Source: a virus
Direction: 5' to 3' (one strand)
IMG/VR virus record: IMGVR_UViG_3300030099_002608
Coordinates: 1 to 25,044 of that record
DNA length: 25,044 nucleotides
In this document: in pieces, positions 2,598 through 25,044 of the stretch
How positions within the stretch are numbered: position 1 is the first letter of the stretch
Layout of the letters: every line of letters begins with the position of its first letter
The notes under the pieces: model-generated
Told to the model about the DNA's origin: nothing
Database searches by the model: none
Seen by the model: only the letters and a program-made list of their open reading frames with translations
Translations under genes and position numbers: made by a program

Positions 2598-5500
2598 TGG
2601 ACCCTATTACTTATGGCGTCGTTATGGGCTTGGGTGAGTCTTTTCTTGCGGGTAAAAAGGCGCTATCAGAAGCTGCAAAAGAAAAGGCAGAGAAAGAGGC
2701 AGAAGTCAGACAGAATAGTCTGGATACGTTTGTCACGTTCTATACTAGCAAGGACAACAGACGAGTTGCTCAAAATCAGCTTGAAACGCGAAGTCCTGTA
2801 TTCTTAGGTCTTTTAAATCAACTTCCCGCCCACAGTCAAGCCGCCATAATCGGAAATGCTCTCGGTGATCTCAGTCTCACCGATACAGAATCCCAGTATC
2901 TCACTGCCATAAACGGAACTAATGGCACAGAAATTGCACGCAGTCTTGTTGTGGACATGAATGTTCAAAATAGTTTAATGAAAAGTCCTACAGGCAAGGG
3001 GGTGTGGAGCTTAATTACATCTAAAGCTGCAGGCGGTCTTTCTGTGGCAGAGCGAGACTTGTTTAATTCTCTTCCAGAGGATGAACAACAACGGTATGAT
3101 CAAGCGCAAACGCTTCTTGTCAACTATCCCAGAGACAGTGTCTTCGGCTCTATTCTTGCTCAGATACGAGAGCCTGTAAGCAGCGGATACGTGCCGCTTG
3201 ACACAGAGTTTTTCAACAGCATCAAGAGTCTGCTTCCTAGTCAAAGCGGTAAAGATGACGACGAGACACCAGTTCTTGCTCAAGGAACTTTAAAGGCTCT
3301 GGGAGCAGCGAGAAAAAGAATTCTTCCGTACGTAGAAGCCCCCATAATTACCACACCAGAGGACCCGGAAGGAAGCCCCGATCCTAACTTTGTGCCCGAT
3401 CAGAGGGCATTCAAGGACCTTCTTGCCATTGATATTCTACTAGGACAATACGGCACGTCAAACGGACTTGATGCAGATGCGGATGCAGAAACCATATCTG
3501 AACGTCTGCAAAGGATCGTAGACTCACTCCCGTCCAGTGAAATAGCAGATAAAAGCGCTAGAAGAAATTTTGCGCAAATGTCTCTAATTAGTCTTATGGG
3601 AGCGGCCTCAACGGACGAGGGAGGTCTTCCCACAGAAGCTCAAAAGCAATTCAGGAAGATGCTAGAGCTTACCGAAGAAAACGGTGCCGGAACTCCCGGT
3701 GCGTTCAGCGCGGAAGACTTAGATAATTTCAACGTAATTACTTCGATTTCTGAGATGGCAAACGAGATCGATAAAAATCGCAGTATATATGGTGGGGGTC
3801 TGGCTGTCGATACGAAAAAGTCAAGGCAAGAGGACCCCGCAGGCTGGTTGTTTGCGATAGATGCCGCGATAAAAAAGGGTCAATTCACGGACATGACTGG
3901 CGATGAACAGCAAGAGTTTATAAGCCACTTGACAGAGGCGTTAATTACAGATGCTGACCAGCGAAGAAATATGAAAAATGAAGCAGGTGAGTCCACTCCT
4001 GCTCCCGGCCGTGCCTACAGACAAATTTTCAAAAACATATACAAAGCTATTCCTACAGAAATGGACACCATCCTAAATAACATGGGGTTCACAGCGGTAA
4101 ACGAAACTGCCTCAGGGGCACCTAATGTACCGGCAGCGCAAGTTACTGCCATAGGCACGCCTCTTCCAGAAACACAGCTTCTGCTTGAAACTGGTCAGGT
4201 CATCAACATCAATGAACACGCCGTCAAGTTTGCAAACAGCATGGGTATGACAACTCACGCCATGTTCAAGACTGATCTACACTTCGGACTTTTGGACTTC
4301 GGATCATCAGACCCTGCACGCTTGTATAAAGCGGCAAACAGTGTCAAAAATTCAGGGATTTTTGCAAACAGAAGGGATCAAGCACTATCACAAGACTCTG
4401 CTGTAAAACTCGCTCAAATATTTGCAGCACAGGGCATAACGGATATGGCGGATCAGATTCGAGTTGTATCCACTGTCATGAGCAGCGACATTCCGCAAAA
4501 GTTTCAACCGGCTAAATATGACTATGCTATGTCAGAACAGAACTTCAATGCGTTCATGATGCAGGCTACAGGCGGACAGATCAATCTCAAGGACATCTCA
4601 AAGTTAAGAACGAACACGAACGACTTTTTAAATGTTGCTACGGAAGTCAGAGGATACTTGGAGAATCTTGGTGAAGGTTCCAGATTTACTGATAATCTCT
4701 CTGCATTCATTCTAAATATAGGTGGCGTAAAAGGAAACCTTGTGTCTCAAGCATTTCAGGGTGGATCAAACTTGCTTCAAGAATTGGGCATTTTCAAAGA
4801 AGCGGATATTCGTGCTGCAGACGGATTCACGGCAGCAGAACAGGCTAGAATGGTGCAGGACGTAGCGGATGAATTCTTTAAGAGTGAATTCCTAGAAAAC
4901 AATGCATTGCTCAAGCAGGCGCTTGTCACGCTAGCATACAACTATGCAAAGACTATGGACCCGTCTGGACGCATCTCCGAACGAGACTTTCAGGCTGCTC
5001 TAGATGCGGTTGCTGCGGGTGATCTAGACGTTCGTGAGACTCAAATTGCAGTTGTTGAAAACCTCATCTCTAAGGCACGAGAAAACTTAGGGTTCTTTGA
5101 CGGCGTCTTTGCTGTGGGTGTAGAGAGTGCAGCAGGCGGTCAAACGTATCGTCCTACCACTGCTACGATACAGAAGGCTCGTTCCATGCGGTACTATCGC
5201 CAGATACAACAGAATACGATGGGCATCGAAAAGGTTACGATGTACACTCAAGATGTTGCAAACTTTGGCACTGGCATCGGTGGTGCATTCCCCAGTAAAA
5301 AAATGAAAGACAAGTACACATTCTTACCTGCCACAGGTCTAGGCACACAAGCCGTGCAGGACAGGATATTTAGGGTTCAGTTGAAGAAGAGGGACGGTAC
5401 ATCCGGTGACTTTATACCCGGTGTTCCTCTCTACATAGACGGCAACGGCGTCATACTCACGCAGGCTCGAATGCAACCATATCTCATGGGAGCCACATAA
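2597..5500 (+). CDS. Large virion protein (967 aa), probable internal/ejection protein
   Basis: The 967-aa protein is mostly soluble and helical with mixed charge; the N-terminal 40 residues contain a charged helix (KKALSEAAKEKAEKEAEVRQ). There are no signal peptide, clear membrane spans or recognisable catalytic motif by eye. It starts at an ATG overlapping the previous TAA and is followed with no gap by an even larger gene. In T7-like and related marine podoviruses, pairs of very long proteins after the tail genes are usually internal core/ejection proteins that travel into the host with the DNA. That assignment is inference from size, order and composition. Confidence 0.75.
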   Translation: MDPITYGVVMGLGESFLAGKKALSEAAKEKAEKEAEVRQNSLDTFVTFYTSKDNRRVAQNQLETRSPVFLGLLNQLPAHSQAAIIGNALGDLSLTDTESQYLTAINGTNGTEIARSLVVDMNVQNSLMKSPTGKGVWSLITSKAAGGLSVAERDLFNSLPEDEQQRYDQAQTLLVNYPRDSVFGSILAQIREPVSSGYVPLDTEFFNSIKSLLPSQSGKDDDETPVLAQGTLKALGAARKRILPYVEAPIITTPEDPEGSPDPNFVPDQRAFKDLLAIDILLGQYGTSNGLDADADAETISERLQRIVDSLPSSEIADKSARRNFAQMSLISLMGAASTDEGGLPTEAQKQFRKMLELTEENGAGTPGAFSAEDLDNFNVITSISEMANEIDKNRSIYGGGLAVDTKKSRQEDPAGWLFAIDAAIKKGQFTDMTGDEQQEFISHLTEALITDADQRRNMKNEAGESTPAPGRAYRQIFKNIYKAIPTEMDTILNNMGFTAVNETASGAPNVPAAQVTAIGTPLPETQLLLETGQVININEHAVKFANSMGMTTHAMFKTDLHFGLLDFGSSDPARLYKAANSVKNSGIFANRRDQALSQDSAVKLAQIFAAQGITDMADQIRVVSTVMSSDIPQKFQPAKYDYAMSEQNFNAFMMQATGGQINLKDISKLRTNTNDFLNVATEVRGYLENLGEGSRFTDNLSAFILNIGGVKGNLVSQAFQGGSNLLQELGIFKEADIRAADGFTAAEQARMVQDVADEFFKSEFLENNALLKQALVTLAYNYAKTMDPSGRISERDFQAALDAVAAGDLDVRETQIAVVENLISKARENLGFFDGVFAVGVESAAGGQTYRPTTATIQKARSMRYYRQIQQNTMGIEKVTMYTQDVANFGTGIGGAFPSKKMKDKYTFLPATGLGTQAVQDRIFRVQLKKRDGTSGDFIPGVPLYIDGNGVILTQARMQPYLMGAT

Positions 5501-17264: not shown

Positions 17265-18806
17265 TTACTGATCTACTTCGTGCAAGTCAAGCCAATTATC
17301 GCCCATTTTTATCTCAATACCGACAGGCATGTCATAGCGGATGCCGTATCTCCGTATAGTTTCTTCAGGCAGGGACAGCATTGCTTCACGCATCAGACTG
17401 ACACAGATATCTTTTTCATCAGGATGACAGTCAATAACGATAGAGTCGTGGACGGTATTGCAGATGACAGACATCAAACTATTTTTTATAAATAGTTTGT
17501 CCAGTCTGACAAGAGCGGCGGGCAACAGGTCCGCAGTTGCAAATCCCTGCACAGGATAATTGCATATGTTCGTGCGATGTGTCGCCGTGCCATACTTTGT
17601 CCACCGCGCTTCAGGAAAAGCATACTGCCTACCAGAGGGAAGGGTGATTACTCGCTTTTCAACGGCCTCTCGCTGCAGGTCTTCGTGCCACGTGGACACT
17701 CCCCCGTACTTTTCTTTAAAGGCCCTGTAGTAGCGCTGCTGGGCCTCTGTGCCCGTGGTTCCACCGTAGAGTGGCTTGAACGTGTGAGCCTTCGCCTCTT
17801 GCCGCGAACAACCTATGACGCTTGCTGTATAGCTGTGAACATCTGTGCCGTCACGAACATCATCATACGCTTGCTTATCGCTAGCTAGAAATCCTGCGAC
17901 TCTGAACTCCAGTTGCGAGTAGTCGCCCTCAATGATCTTGCCGTTCTCAAAGCGACTCTCGACAACCTTGCGTATTTCGAAGGTATTACCACGTGGCATA
18001 TTCTGAAAGTTCGGGTTACGAGACGAAAGGCGACCCGTCGCAGTAACACATTGCATAAATTCTGGATGTATGATCCCGTAATCATCGACATTGTTTTTCA
18101 TCCCTTCTACAAAGGTGCCCAAGTACATACGCAGTGCATTGTACCGCACATACGCAGATGCAAACTCACGGGCTTGACCCGAAAGTTCTAGTTCACGTTC
18201 AGCCAGTGTGTCCTTGTCTGTCCTGAATCCTGCTGACGCAACATCTCGCACACTACGTGGAACGATCTTAAATCCTGCTACTTCCCTTGTCGGCATGTAC
18301 ACGACACCCTTGCCGCCACAGTAAGTGCAGATGCGAACAGCCTTGCTTGGCGTGCCATCCTTACGCACAGGCCGCACTCTGCCCTGACCCAAGCAGGTAG
18401 CACAACGCTCACCCACTGTTTTATACACAACATCTGTGTTGTTACGAACAGCGATACGAAACTCTTTGCCGGACATTCGAGTACGTTGCTTGGGTTTCAT
18501 CGTGGCACCACGAAGCTCCATGCCCAAGTTGAACAGATTTGACCACGTTCCCTTGTCTTTTACTTTTCGTGAGTACAGAAGCATAGACCTGTCGTCGGGA
18601 CTGGTCAGACTTATGGGAGTGTCACCCATAGCTTCACGAGCCATGTCATTGAGACGCAACTCAAGTTCATCAAGTTCCTCTTGATATTGCTTTTCAATCT
18701 CCTTGAGTGTGTCGATGTTTATACGCAGTCCGTTTCGTTCGATACGGGAAAGCGTATCAGCCATCTCAAAGGACAGGCGAAGGGTGGGCAGTAGACTGTT
18801 CGTCAT
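17265..18806 (-). CDS. polA: Family A DNA polymerase (polymerase domain only) with DnaJ-type zinc insert
   Basis: The 513-aa protein synthesises phage DNA. Motif A is GDYSQLEFR with Asp295. The O-helix runs from Arg335 to Tyr347 (RQEAKAHTFKPLYGG) with Lys339; Phe343 aligns with E. coli Phe762. Motif C is VHDSI with His453-Asp454. There is no 3'-5' exonuclease domain; that activity is encoded by the overlapping upstream gene. Residues 135-167 carry two CxxCxGxG motifs (CATCLGQG and CTYCGGKG), a DnaJ-type zinc-binding insert in the region before the palm, a feature I recall from phage HMO-2011. Start at 18806 chosen because GAGGAA lies about eight bases upstream; upstream Met codons at 18842 would extend into the exonuclease gene. 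Confidence 0.95.
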   Translation of the reverse strand: MTNSLLPTLRLSFEMADTLSRIERNGLRINIDTLKEIEKQYQEELDELELRLNDMAREAMGDTPISLTSPDDRSMLLYSRKVKDKGTWSNLFNLGMELRGATMKPKQRTRMSGKEFRIAVRNNTDVVYKTVGERCATCLGQGRVRPVRKDGTPSKAVRICTYCGGKGVVYMPTREVAGFKIVPRSVRDVASAGFRTDKDTLAERELELSGQAREFASAYVRYNALRMYLGTFVEGMKNNVDDYGIIHPEFMQCVTATGRLSSRNPNFQNMPRGNTFEIRKVVESRFENGKIIEGDYSQLEFRVAGFLASDKQAYDDVRDGTDVHSYTASVIGCSRQEAKAHTFKPLYGGTTGTEAQQRYYRAFKEKYGGVSTWHEDLQREAVEKRVITLPSGRQYAFPEARWTKYGTATHRTNICNYPVQGFATADLLPAALVRLDKLFIKNSLMSVICNTVHDSIVIDCHPDEKDICVSLMREAMLSLPEETIRRYGIRYDMPVGIEIKMGDNWLDLHEVDQ

Positions 18807-19347
18807 TGTATAGTTCCTCAAATGTAGTGCCAAAGGCATCAAGTTGTTTCAGAGCTACTTGCTCCGTGCTTATGACATCAGCGATGCCATACTCTTTTAC
18901 GATCTCCCACGGTATGTCGTAGAACGTCTTTCCCTCGTCCAGATACGGCTGGACAAGGTCTTTCTCTTTTTGCACTGTGTCATACTTTTTTGCAAGAGCA
19001 GCAAGTCCAAGAGGCCAACGTCGCGCCTTCGATAAAATATATTCTGCAACCATCGTATCATAGATGTGTCCCTCGTATATGAAACCGCAGTCACGTATCC
19101 ACTGCAAGTCGAACTTGATATTCTGACCAACAACCAAGTCAGCGTAGTTGAGTGCCAGTTGAAACCCCTCCGTAGCAGCTTGTGTCGGGGGTTCTGTGGA
19201 GTGATAGTAACAGTCATAGACCACCGCACTACCACGCCACTTGTAGCCTACCGACACAAGGCGATTACCAAAGTAGGGTAACGCAGTGGTGCCGCCGTTC
19301 GGTTTGTCCGTGTGAGTTGTCTCCACGTCAAAGGTCAGGACGTTCAT
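18766..19347 (-). CDS. 3'-5' exonuclease (DnaQ/Pol I proofreading domain type)
   Basis: The 193-aa protein has the three exonuclease motifs of the DEDDy group: Exo I Asp7-x-Glu9 in LTFDVETT, Exo II Asp80 in GQNIKFDLQW, and Exo III Tyr153-x3-Asp157 in EYGIADVIS. These residues bind the two metal ions. The protein corresponds to the proofreading domain of Pol I and is encoded separately, overlapping the polymerase gene by 41 bases in another frame. It probably acts as the polymerase's proofreading partner in trans. ATG at 19347 is preceded by GAGGAGGAGT and forms an ATGA overlap with the small gene upstream, so it is preferred to the longer frame starting at 19425. Confidence 0.92.
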   Translation of the reverse strand: MNVLTFDVETTHTDKPNGGTTALPYFGNRLVSVGYKWRGSAVVYDCYYHSTEPPTQAATEGFQLALNYADLVVGQNIKFDLQWIRDCGFIYEGHIYDTMVAEYILSKARRWPLGLAALAKKYDTVQKEKDLVQPYLDEGKTFYDIPWEIVKEYGIADVISTEQVALKQLDAFGTTFEELYNDEQSTAHPSPVL

Positions 19348-19496
19348 TCCGACTCCTCCTCGAACCGTTTCCTTGCAAAATACTCCGCAAACTTTTCGAC
19401 CTGTTCTTCTGAAAGGATAGGCCACCTCTTGCGTGCCGCAACATACTCTTCTTCGTAGAGACGTTCAAGCGCTTCTTCGTTGTGATGATTACTCAT
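19344..19496 (-). CDS. 50-aa charged helical protein (hypothetical)
   Basis: This short gene encodes a highly charged, probably all-helical protein starting MSNHHNEEALERLYEEEYV and ending RKRFEEESE. It starts three bases after the 38-aa membrane protein and ends with an ATGA overlap into the exonuclease gene. Its last codons also contain the SD of the exonuclease gene, so translation of the two is likely coupled. There is no known motif; the middle (RWPILSEEQVEKFAEYFARK) looks like a helix-turn-helix-sized pair of helices, but without DNA-binding signature. An accessory factor for replication is possible. Confidence 0.7.
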   Translation of the reverse strand: MSNHHNEEALERLYEEEYVAARKRWPILSEEQVEKFAEYFARKRFEEESE

Positions 19497-24195: not shown

Positions 24196-24441
24196 ATGAA
24201 AAAACGTATACACATAAACCAGCACGTCATCCGCGCCAACAAAAAGAACGGCACGAACGATCCGGCGATCACTGTAAAAACGTATAAGGAAAATTTTTAC
24301 GCTCATCGCGTCGGGATTAGTGGGCCATCGTCTGTTGTTTACTCACCGGATAAGCCGCTAAGTTGTGGCGCTCATGTGTGGATTGAGACTAACGAAACAG
24401 TAATAGCACATGGCGGCAAAAAGGTGAAAATCCTACGATGA
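24196..24441 (+). CDS. Conserved small phage protein (81 aa), unknown function
   Basis: The protein starts MKKRIHINQHVIRANKKNG and contains GPSSVVYSPDKPLSCGAHVW followed by an acidic strand (IETNETVIAHGG). I recall very similar INQHxIRxN and VYSPDKPLxCGAxVW segments in small proteins of many phages and some actinobacterial genomes, all unassigned. AAGGAA nine bases before the ATG fits an SD. Forty-two bases separate it from the zinc-ribbon gene, holding no gene; its stop overlaps the next start as ATGA. Confidence 0.8.
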   Translation: MKKRIHINQHVIRANKKNGTNDPAITVKTYKENFYAHRVGISGPSSVVYSPDKPLSCGAHVWIETNETVIAHGGKKVKILR

Positions 24442-25044
24442 CAAAACAGGCCACGCTAATCGATCACGAAAAGATGATCTACAATATTACCAGCGTCTAC
24501 CGTGACGCCGACGAAACGCAGCATGCGGATGGTTTGTTGTGGTATGACAATGCACAGAAGGCGGCGTATCGTATCGCGTTAAAATATGACGTTCCTGTTT
24601 ATATCGCTGTTGCTGTTATCGCCGCGCTTTCACCTAACAACAAATGGTCACGCAACTTGATAAATGCCGACGCTTTAATCGGTGCCTTTGTTAATGGTGA
24701 CGGCATCGACGCGGTGAAAGTCTGCACATATAACAAGATGAAACAGAAGGCATGGGACATCTTGGCGGCGCGTCCGGACTACGACGGCGCAAAACGTATG
24801 CTGAAAGGGCAAAAGATTACGTCGTTCTTTTGTGACATCATGGGCGAGTTCAACGTGACAATCGATGGACACGCCCGAAACATCGCTTATGGTGAGCGTG
24901 TCAGCTTGAAGGACGACCGGTCGAACATTGGCATCCGTGAATATCGCGCTTTACAAGCTGCATATGAGGCGGCAGCGGAACGGCTCGGCCTCATGCCCTA
25001 CCAACTACAGGCGATCACTTGGCGCGTCTGGCGCGACCGGCACG
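24438..25044 (+). CDS. Conserved phage protein resembling HhH-GPD DNA glycosylases (partial, runs off the window)
   Basis: At least 202 codons are visible with no stop. Key segments: AVIAALSPNNKWSRNLINAD, then CTYNKMKQKAWDIL, LKGQKITSFFCDIMG and VTIDGHARNIAYGER. Read against endonuclease III, these align in order with its LSxxTxxxxxN helix, its KAxxI helix, the GVGxKTA hairpin (here KGQKITS) and the VDTHVxR strand that holds the catalytic Asp (here TIDGHARN). This suggests a base-excision DNA glycosylase or a catalytically altered relative; no Fe-S cysteines can be judged because the C-terminus is missing. I know this as a recurrent unnamed phage family; the glycosylase link is my inference from motif order. 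Confidence 0.75.
   Translation, partial: MTKQATLIDHEKMIYNITSVYRDADETQHADGLLWYDNAQKAAYRIALKYDVPVYIAVAVIAALSPNNKWSRNLINADALIGAFVNGDGIDAVKVCTYNKMKQKAWDILAARPDYDGAKRMLKGQKITSFFCDIMGEFNVTIDGHARNIAYGERVSLKDDRSNIGIREYRALQAAYEAAAERLGLMPYQLQAITWRVWRDRH

Follow-up and report, generated by a model that had tools for sequence, protein, structure and literature searches.

DUF7178, a recurrent phage protein family, as a candidate OGG-like HhH-GPD DNA glycosylase

The window analyzed here, the whole 25,044-base virus record IMGVR_UViG_3300030099_002608 from IMG/VR, ends in an open reading frame (ORF) of the protein family DUF7178 (Pfam PF23802). Sequence alignments and structure models point to a glycosylase/AP (apurinic/apyrimidinic) lyase that would act on a guanine-like lesion or modification, probably early in infection; a probability of roughly 0.7 is assigned to this reading. 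Computation supports the fold, the position and invariance of a Lys, an Asp, a Gln and a Trp, the distribution of the family, and the terminal position of its gene. Judged from the models, the closest solved relatives are 8-oxoguanine (8-oxoG) glycosylases, with OGG2 first, followed by EndoIII, OGG1 and AGOG.

The ORF begins with an ATG and runs to the window end without a stop, truncated by the contig at residue 202. Another locus (L001) encodes a protein that is identical across all 202 amino acids (aa) and is completed by three more residues, to 205 aa. The ORF is a near full-length member of DUF7178 (E 4.9e-43) and also matches phrog_3842 (E 1.9e-57); neither family carries a functional annotation in Pfam or PHROGs. 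Because of these two matches, the 105 phage records that hold relatives and the further relatives in IMG/VR, the ORF is a real gene and chance is excluded as its origin.

Predicted fold, candidate catalytic pair and base pocket

An alignment of 97 members below 85% identity, two of them chromosomal (A5; of 104 representatives, 10 that come from annotated records were omitted and three near equivalents added), served as the basis of an AlphaFold2 model of the window protein with a predicted local distance difference test score (pLDDT) of 95.9 and a predicted template modeling score (pTM) of 0.91. VIA realigned 977 chains to this model, and the 50 best rows shown are all HhH-GPD glycosylases. 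OGG2 leads with a Z of 12.7 (171 residues aligned, 3.7 Å), followed by EndoIII at 10.7 (166, 3.3 Å), hOGG1 at 9.4 (157, 3.3 Å), AGOG at 9.3 (191, 4.6 Å) and MagIII at 9.2. Since VIA warns that helical models can reach such Z values by arrangement alone, a second branch of 23 proteins was modeled from its own rows; these lie among the 97 of A5 and hence are not independent. Its head sequence, from a mycobacteriophage, shares 28% identity with the window protein. This second model (pLDDT 96.3) again places HhH-GPD glycosylases in all 50 of the best rows shown, with OGG2 at Z 12.5 (165 aligned, 3.2 Å), AGOG at 9.6 and hOGG1 at 9.1. Both models have the all-alpha HhH-GPD fold. A Foldseek search of the PDB with the window model returns OGG2 enzymes in its first five rows, at probability 1.00 and E 0.014 to 0.05.

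Profile alignment with hhalign of A5 against 18 Nth (endonuclease III) sequences from public genomes yields a probability of 91.0, an E of 1.1e-6 and a score of 49.4 over 125 columns, where 60 column-shuffled copies of A5 reach at most 20.6 and the reversed A5 reaches 13.2. In this register K126 falls on the GVARKTAN Lys and D143 on the VDTH Asp, the catalytic residues of Nth. With five OGG2 sequences hhalign scores 31.6 (shuffled maximum 16.9) at a probability of only 31; this alignment spans the strand before D143 to just past W195 and pairs Q191 with the Asp, and W195 with the Trp, of OGG2. The corresponding catalytic pair of hOGG1 is K249-D268, according to the accessible passages of PMC3397491.

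The initial annotation had proposed a divergent HhH-GPD glycosylase from four motifs in the order of endonuclease III, with an Asp in the catalytic position behind a degenerate hairpin. All four are present in the ORF (ALSPNNKWSRN, residues 63-73; KMKQKAWDIL, 100-109; LKGQKITSFF, 122-131; VTIDGHARN, 140-148) and colinear with Nth in the hhalign alignment, which places D143 on the Nth catalytic Asp far above the shuffled control; the hairpin is indeed degenerate, LKGQK being two residues shorter than LPGV.RK of Nth. The fold and the placement of the Asp, on which that proposal had been staked, both came out in its favor. Its likening to endonuclease III is borne out by the Nth alignment, while the closest solved relatives are OGG2 enzymes and not Nth in particular. 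Beyond what had been proposed, K126 in LKGQK, the Phe at K+4 and QAITW at the C-terminal end prove to be as invariant as the Asp.

Conservation was assessed in 254 distinct proteins, obtained from 294 loci by leaving out two short ones, the window copy and a long fusion, adding the two domain copies of that fusion and removing identical rows. K126, F130, D143, Q191, W35, Y36, S65 and P66 are invariant in all 254, which for S65, P66, F130 and D143 is partly a product of selection, as the IMG/VR search patterns take in the surroundings of D143, SP from ALSP and, for A3, F130, any one pattern being sufficient. W195 is invariant in 253 of 253, one row stopping before this position. K126 and W195 are absent from the later IMG/VR patterns; the first IMG/VR scan used KMKQKAWD, DIMGEFNV, MPYQLQAI (which holds Q191) and three more, and the patterns of the genome scan included QAITW. 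The 12 loci found by pattern-free tblastn all retain K126, F130, D143, Q191 and W195. The Lys lies at the hairpin end, 17-21 residues ahead of the Asp in 254 of 254, as in bifunctional glycosylase/AP lyases, D143 stands at the start of the helix after the hairpin, as does the catalytic Asp of HhH-GPD enzymes, and the Gln and Trp are spaced by 4 in 253 proteins. No column holds Cys in half of the 254 rows. A C-terminal Lys is not conserved either, as 36 of the 254 proteins end in one. Model residues 15-201 cover hOGG1 116-325 and at most 14 residues precede them, leaving no room for an A-domain.

The pocket positions were derived from the ends of the VIA alignments, assuming no gap between the last helix (model residues 187-201) and the final aligned residue. 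Residues 324/325 of hOGG1 lie opposite model residues 200/201, which equates Q191 with 315 and W195 with 319. The end offsets of OGG2 3knt (model 200 to 203), Pa-AGOG (205 to 232) and CacOGG1 3i0x (204 to 291) likewise equate the two residues with 194 and 198, 218 and 222, and 278 and 282, respectively. The same four pairs are obtained for Q180/W184 of the second model (hOGG1 190 to 325, 3knt 190 to 204, AGOG 191 to 229, 3i0w 191 to 289). In its accessible passages, PMC3397491 names these residues of OGG1, OGG2 and AGOG as base-edge and stacking residues, gives His in OGG2 and Phe in AGOG at the hOGG1 Cys253 position, and describes a His (hOGG1 270) or Trp (CacOGG1 243) that moves together with the stacking residue. 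The His of MjaOGG2 is printed there as His148; a count along the 3knt sequence gives 149. The Gln/Trp/Phe pocket suggests a guanine-like base. The loop at residues 62-73 likely contacts DNA or contributes to the pocket, and discrimination of lesion from guanine may fall to W35 and Y36, both invariant and located in the second helix.

Table 1. Positions, in the window, of the DUF7178 gene, its motifs and key residues, and the adjoining upstream ORF
Feature	Position	Strand	Remarks
DUF7178 protein, OGG-like HhH-GPD DNA glycosylase candidate	24438..25043	+	202 of 205 aa; 3' end beyond contig
AALSPNNKWSRN, residues 62-73	24621..24656	+	helix end and loop, aligned to LSAQ.TD of Nth; S65, P66 invariant
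KMKQKAWDIL, residues 100-109	24735..24764	+	aligned to FYRNKAKNI region of Nth
Degenerate helix-hairpin-helix LKGQKITSFF, residues 122-131	24801..24830	+	AlphaFold2 helices 115-122 and 125-134; hhalign
K126, candidate Schiff-base lysine (hOGG1 K249 equivalent)	24813..24815	+	254/254 distinct proteins
F130 (K+4), hOGG1 Cys253 position, Phe in AGOG	24825..24827	+	254/254
D143, candidate catalytic aspartate (hOGG1 D268 equivalent)	24864..24866	+	254/254
H145 (D+2)	24870..24872	+	His 213, Trp 41, nothing else in family
Q191, position of hOGG1 Gln315 / OGG2 Asp194 / AGOG Asp218	25008..25010	+	254/254
W195, position of hOGG1 Phe319 / OGG2 Trp198 / AGOG Trp222	25020..25022	+	253/253
Upstream small ORF, 81 aa, phrog_8676 (no known function)	24196..24441	+	stop overlaps ATG of the glycosylase candidate (ATGA)

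DUF7178 is the sole good Pfam match of all 97 A5 members, and scans of these members against NCBIfam and PADLOC give scattered weak matches only, among them a single match to the NCBIfam OGG2 model (E 0.036). Six members match NCBIfam NF008029 (best E 0.005) and two match Pfam SLT_2 (best E 0.021), as a helical protein resembling lytic murein transglycosylases might; this identity is rejected and its probability negligible, since all 50 of the best-listed VIA neighbors are DNA glycosylases and the Foldseek match to SltB2 has a probability of 0.07.

Distribution and genomic setting

Relatives of DUF7178 were found by tblastn in 105 of 50,697 phage records. Phages of Mycobacterium (35) and Gordonia (20) form the largest named host groups, and other carriers include roseophages, cyanophages and phages of Streptomyces, Microbacterium and further hosts. 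In pattern scans of IMG/VR, relatives are encoded by 141 of 191 candidate stretches (first scan) and by at least 588 of 600 (second scan). Five records of Streptomyces plasmids contain the family as well. Bacterial genomes scanned with short patterns, a non-exhaustive approach, gave 2 confirmed loci. With seed genomes included, 3 of 396 genomes sampled from the Actinomycetota-side phylum and 2 of 292 from the Nostoc-side phylum match at E ≤ 0.001; seeds aside, the figures are 2 of 396, one of them above the cut-off, and 1 of 292, under the cut-off. DUF7178 is hardly present on bacterial chromosomes.

Several observations accompany these counts. The Nocardia genome G002 holds two DUF7178 copies on separate contigs (L294/L357 and L360). 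Microbacterium phage Cece (L088) and Rhodococcus phage Dorin (L089), both large actinophages, carry the family at two places per genome, with Lsr2-like genes near. Five Actinomycetota loci (L302, L304, L305, L312 and L313) encode OGG1-like proteins with ICTTNCAW and LDSWTR that lack a Lys where one is expected in the hairpin (GPYAAAH).

That many phages carry this candidate enzyme, as the initial annotation had supposed, is confirmed by the 105 records; that it is hidden is not, as "glycosylase" or "N-glycosylase/DNA lyase" labels stand on 6 of 60 phage records among the matches listed, and likewise on prophiGD54-2. The idea of a glycosylase fold is not new, since some record annotators had reached it. 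A literature search found no paper on DUF7178, and none among those listed that makes the case for this family at the level of residues or describes its mixed pocket, terminal gene position or polyvalent copies. The accessible part of PMC5512222 contains no "glycosylase" and one unrelated "HhH" passage, and the passages available from PMC7412058, PMC9964418, PMC10783043 and PMC7824862 concern glycosylases other than DUF7178.

Gene position was tabulated for 37 records hand-picked from the phage and plasmid listings across named lineages; setting aside three circular records and a partial one leaves 33. The gene lies within 10% of a genome end in 30 of these 33 non-circular records and in 15 of 16 groups, the groups being author-defined and some record ends possibly arbitrary. 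On Streptomyces plasmids it lies less than 2.5 kb from the record end in five records (for SLP2, L363, at 3995-4576); the two that were viewed are both linear. The position could point to a protein that acts at DNA termini. This is very improbable, as terminal regions often house accessory genes, some members come from records described as circular, and end processing is not what a glycosylase pocket would suggest. In the Siovirus and cyanopodovirus records viewed, DUF7178 stands ahead of RNA polymerase or primase/helicase genes.

Neighbors seen in single phages include a DNA methyltransferase, an OCR-like protein, an SprT-like protease, a Cas4-type exonuclease and ThyX. Rctr197k_173 (L092, 611-6727) is a 2,039-aa protein with InPase, a 2'-5' RNA ligase-like domain (2H-type, 2_5_RNA_ligase2), a weak ParB_N and two copies of DUF7178. 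About 80 residues are inserted between the halves of the second copy, and both copies retain K, F, D, H, Q and W. Of the proteins inspected it alone has the makeup of a polyvalent protein, and the window protein is stand-alone. Rows of the BFVD list, seen as rows only, point to further DUF7178 fusions, some labeled ART-PolyVal or "large polyvalent".

The window itself has the gene set of a tailed phage, with ribonucleotide reductase, a MazG-like protein, an endonuclease, an A-type DNA polymerase in two ORFs, a DnaB-like helicase and a primase; the helicase is nearest to those of Pelagibacter phage HTVC033P and the CRP roseophages, at no more than 37% identity. To the right of the replication genes runs a rightward series of small ORFs, the last of which is DUF7178. 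It is perhaps translationally coupled to the phrog_8676 ORF, as the ATGA overlap would allow. The DNA polymerase (17265-19425, minus strand) occupies two overlapping ORFs in different frames, the exonuclease at 18766-19425 and the polymerase at 17265-18842, which reflects a natural split, a frameshift or a sequencing error. Two long ORFs between 2597 and 10516 (967 and 1671 aa) match nothing in Pfam (E 0.1) or PHROG (E 0.001) and perhaps encode virion or internal proteins.

Proposed function and competing explanations

The DUF7178 enzyme is envisaged as a small HhH-GPD glycosylase without an iron-sulfur (FeS) cluster, on the OGG side of the superfamily. By base flipping it would remove a guanine-like lesion or a modified purine from the double helix, hold it stacked between Trp195 and Phe130, and read its edge with Gln191. 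Asp143 would then cut the N-glycosidic bond, and Lys126 would form a Schiff base leading to a strand nick, as in an AP lyase. Made early in infection, and in one phage within a polyvalent protein, the enzyme may clear such bases from the entering genome. The chemistry, with an activating Asp, a Lys Schiff base and a lyase nick, follows from the superfamily; activity, the lyase step, purine specificity and timing are what we infer from it and from the gene's position. The nick is the less certain half of this mechanism, because in cells OGG1 may carry out its lyase step incidentally, as stated in the accessible passages of PMC3397491.

Several results weigh against this proposal. Neither the single protein nor profile A1 or A5 retrieved a glycosylase from the PDB with HMMER, and the Pfam HhH-GPD model (PF00730) is not matched, with no match in the window's record at E ≤ 10. 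The hhalign scores against MutY, AlkA and actinobacterial OGG1-like proteins are at noise (17.7, 17.0 and 14.9 vs shuffled maxima of 20.9, 17.2 and 24.5). Foldseek with the window model returns no PDB row under E 0.001 (best 0.014), and with the second model AGOG and OGG2 occupy ranks 1-5 at E 0.22 to 0.86 before mostly unrelated rows; the VIA caution on common helical arrangements extends to Z values of about 13. No neighboring gene is widely shared, the maximum being 4 of 41 clusters (at 60% identity). Early action is probable from the gene position only, and without the A-domain of OGG1 and the C-terminal Lys of OGG2 the discrimination of 8-oxoG from G is not explained. A separate candidate, the top row of the single-protein PDB search, is a designed helical repeat protein; its E weakens to 8 when profile A1 is the query, and composition most likely accounts for the match.

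The missing base-specificity sensors and the shortened hairpin would also fit an AP lyase or DNA-bending protein that has kept the fold and lost base excision. This is unlikely, as Q191, W195 and F130 are as invariant as the Lys and Asp, and a pure lyase or binder would not need them.

Early genome repair is the first choice of role, and its strongest rival is a role in conflict, which the evidence separates from it poorly. Here the protein would act on modified guanine in the DNA of the host or of a competing phage, generating AP sites and nicks. Terminal placement among accessory genes, the OCR-like antirestriction protein and DNA methyltransferases near the gene in single phages, the polyvalent-protein association and the missing 8-oxoG sensors of OGG1 and OGG2 all speak for such an enzyme, as does the precedent of glycosylases in phage conflict; Brig1, described in the part of the source available as an anti-phage glycosylase acting on glucosyl-hydroxymethylcytosine, would be its analogue from the opposite side. 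Against it, there is no recurring partner gene and base-modification genes are not regularly adjacent, the nearest folds are repair enzymes, and no PADLOC family matches at a convincing score. The conflict role is possible, with the balance of probability against it.

A more speculative extension, for which the odds are rather poor, is also compatible with the absent 8-oxoG sensors, the mixed pocket and the gene's terminal position: DUF7178 may form a fourth OGG lineage, one that evolved within mobile elements and excises host- or rival-modified guanine and not 8-oxoG. Substrates could be, for instance, ADP-ribosyl-guanine from DarT-type anti-phage toxins or 7-deazaguanine-type bases; ADP-ribosylation of guanosine exists and DarTG protects against phages, as reported in the accessible parts of PMC11543638 and PMC11125620. 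If true, this would be a phage counter-defense or anti-rival base excision enzyme, expressed early from terminal DNA and sometimes injected within a polyvalent protein.

On the favored reading of a glycosylase/AP lyase for guanine-like bases, a recurrent family of marine podoviruses, cyanophages, actinophages and some Streptomyces plasmids now has a predicted fold, a candidate catalytic pair and a candidate base-reading pair, turning an anonymous gene family into one directly testable by a short biochemical assay. It also raises the question of why so many phages would carry a guanine-type excision enzyme when hosts own glycosylases; in the phylum to which the Nostoc locus belongs, 29 of 29 sampled genomes have HhH-GPD genes above the cut-off. 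The answer could lie in early repair of the DNA that enters the cell, or else in a new arena where phages and hosts modify and counter-modify bases against each other.

Comparison with known glycosylases

Endonuclease III and MutY carry a C-terminal set of 4Fe4S Cys residues. DUF7178 is colinear with endonuclease III over residues 36-173 and shares its Lys/Asp register; it differs in having no conserved FeS-cluster Cys, an OGG-type C-terminal helix and the shorter hairpin noted above.

OGG2 (MjaOGG2 3knt/3fhf, SsoOGG2 3fhg and TmaOGG2 3n0u; archaeal and bacterial; Pfam Ogg-HhH PF22175) is the best fold match of both models and shares with DUF7178 a length of about 205 aa, the lack of an A-domain, the stacking Trp and the Lys/Asp pair. 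DUF7178 differs by Gln191 in place of Asp194, by Phe in place of His at K+4 and by a match at the level of hidden Markov models in just one of 97 members. It also lacks the conserved C-terminal Lys, whose carboxylate is the 8-oxoG sensor of OGG2 in the accessible passages of PMC3397491. OGG1 (hOGG1 and CacOGG1) resembles DUF7178 in the Gln at the 315 position, the Lys/Asp pair and the His or Trp at D+2. Unlike OGG1, DUF7178 has Trp for Phe319 and Phe for Cys253, and is without the N-terminal A-domain that holds the Gly42 sensor (same passages of PMC3397491). AGOG (Pa-AGOG 1xqo/1xqp; Z 9.3 and 9.6) shares the Phe at K+4 and the stacking Trp, and DUF7178 departs from it in Gln for Asp218 and in size (205 vs about 250 aa); equivalents of AGOG Gln31 and Trp69 were not placed.

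The modeled pocket of DUF7178 thus appears to mix features of OGG1, OGG2 and AGOG, and because this mixed pocket comes without the OGG2 C-terminal Lys or the OGG1 A-domain, the family is here called a separate, putative OGG-like lineage that fits neither OGG1 nor OGG2. The anti-phage glycosylases Brig1 and Brig3, as far as the available passages describe them, act in phage-host conflict, as DUF7178 may do; DUF7178 is phage-borne and of predicted HhH-GPD type.
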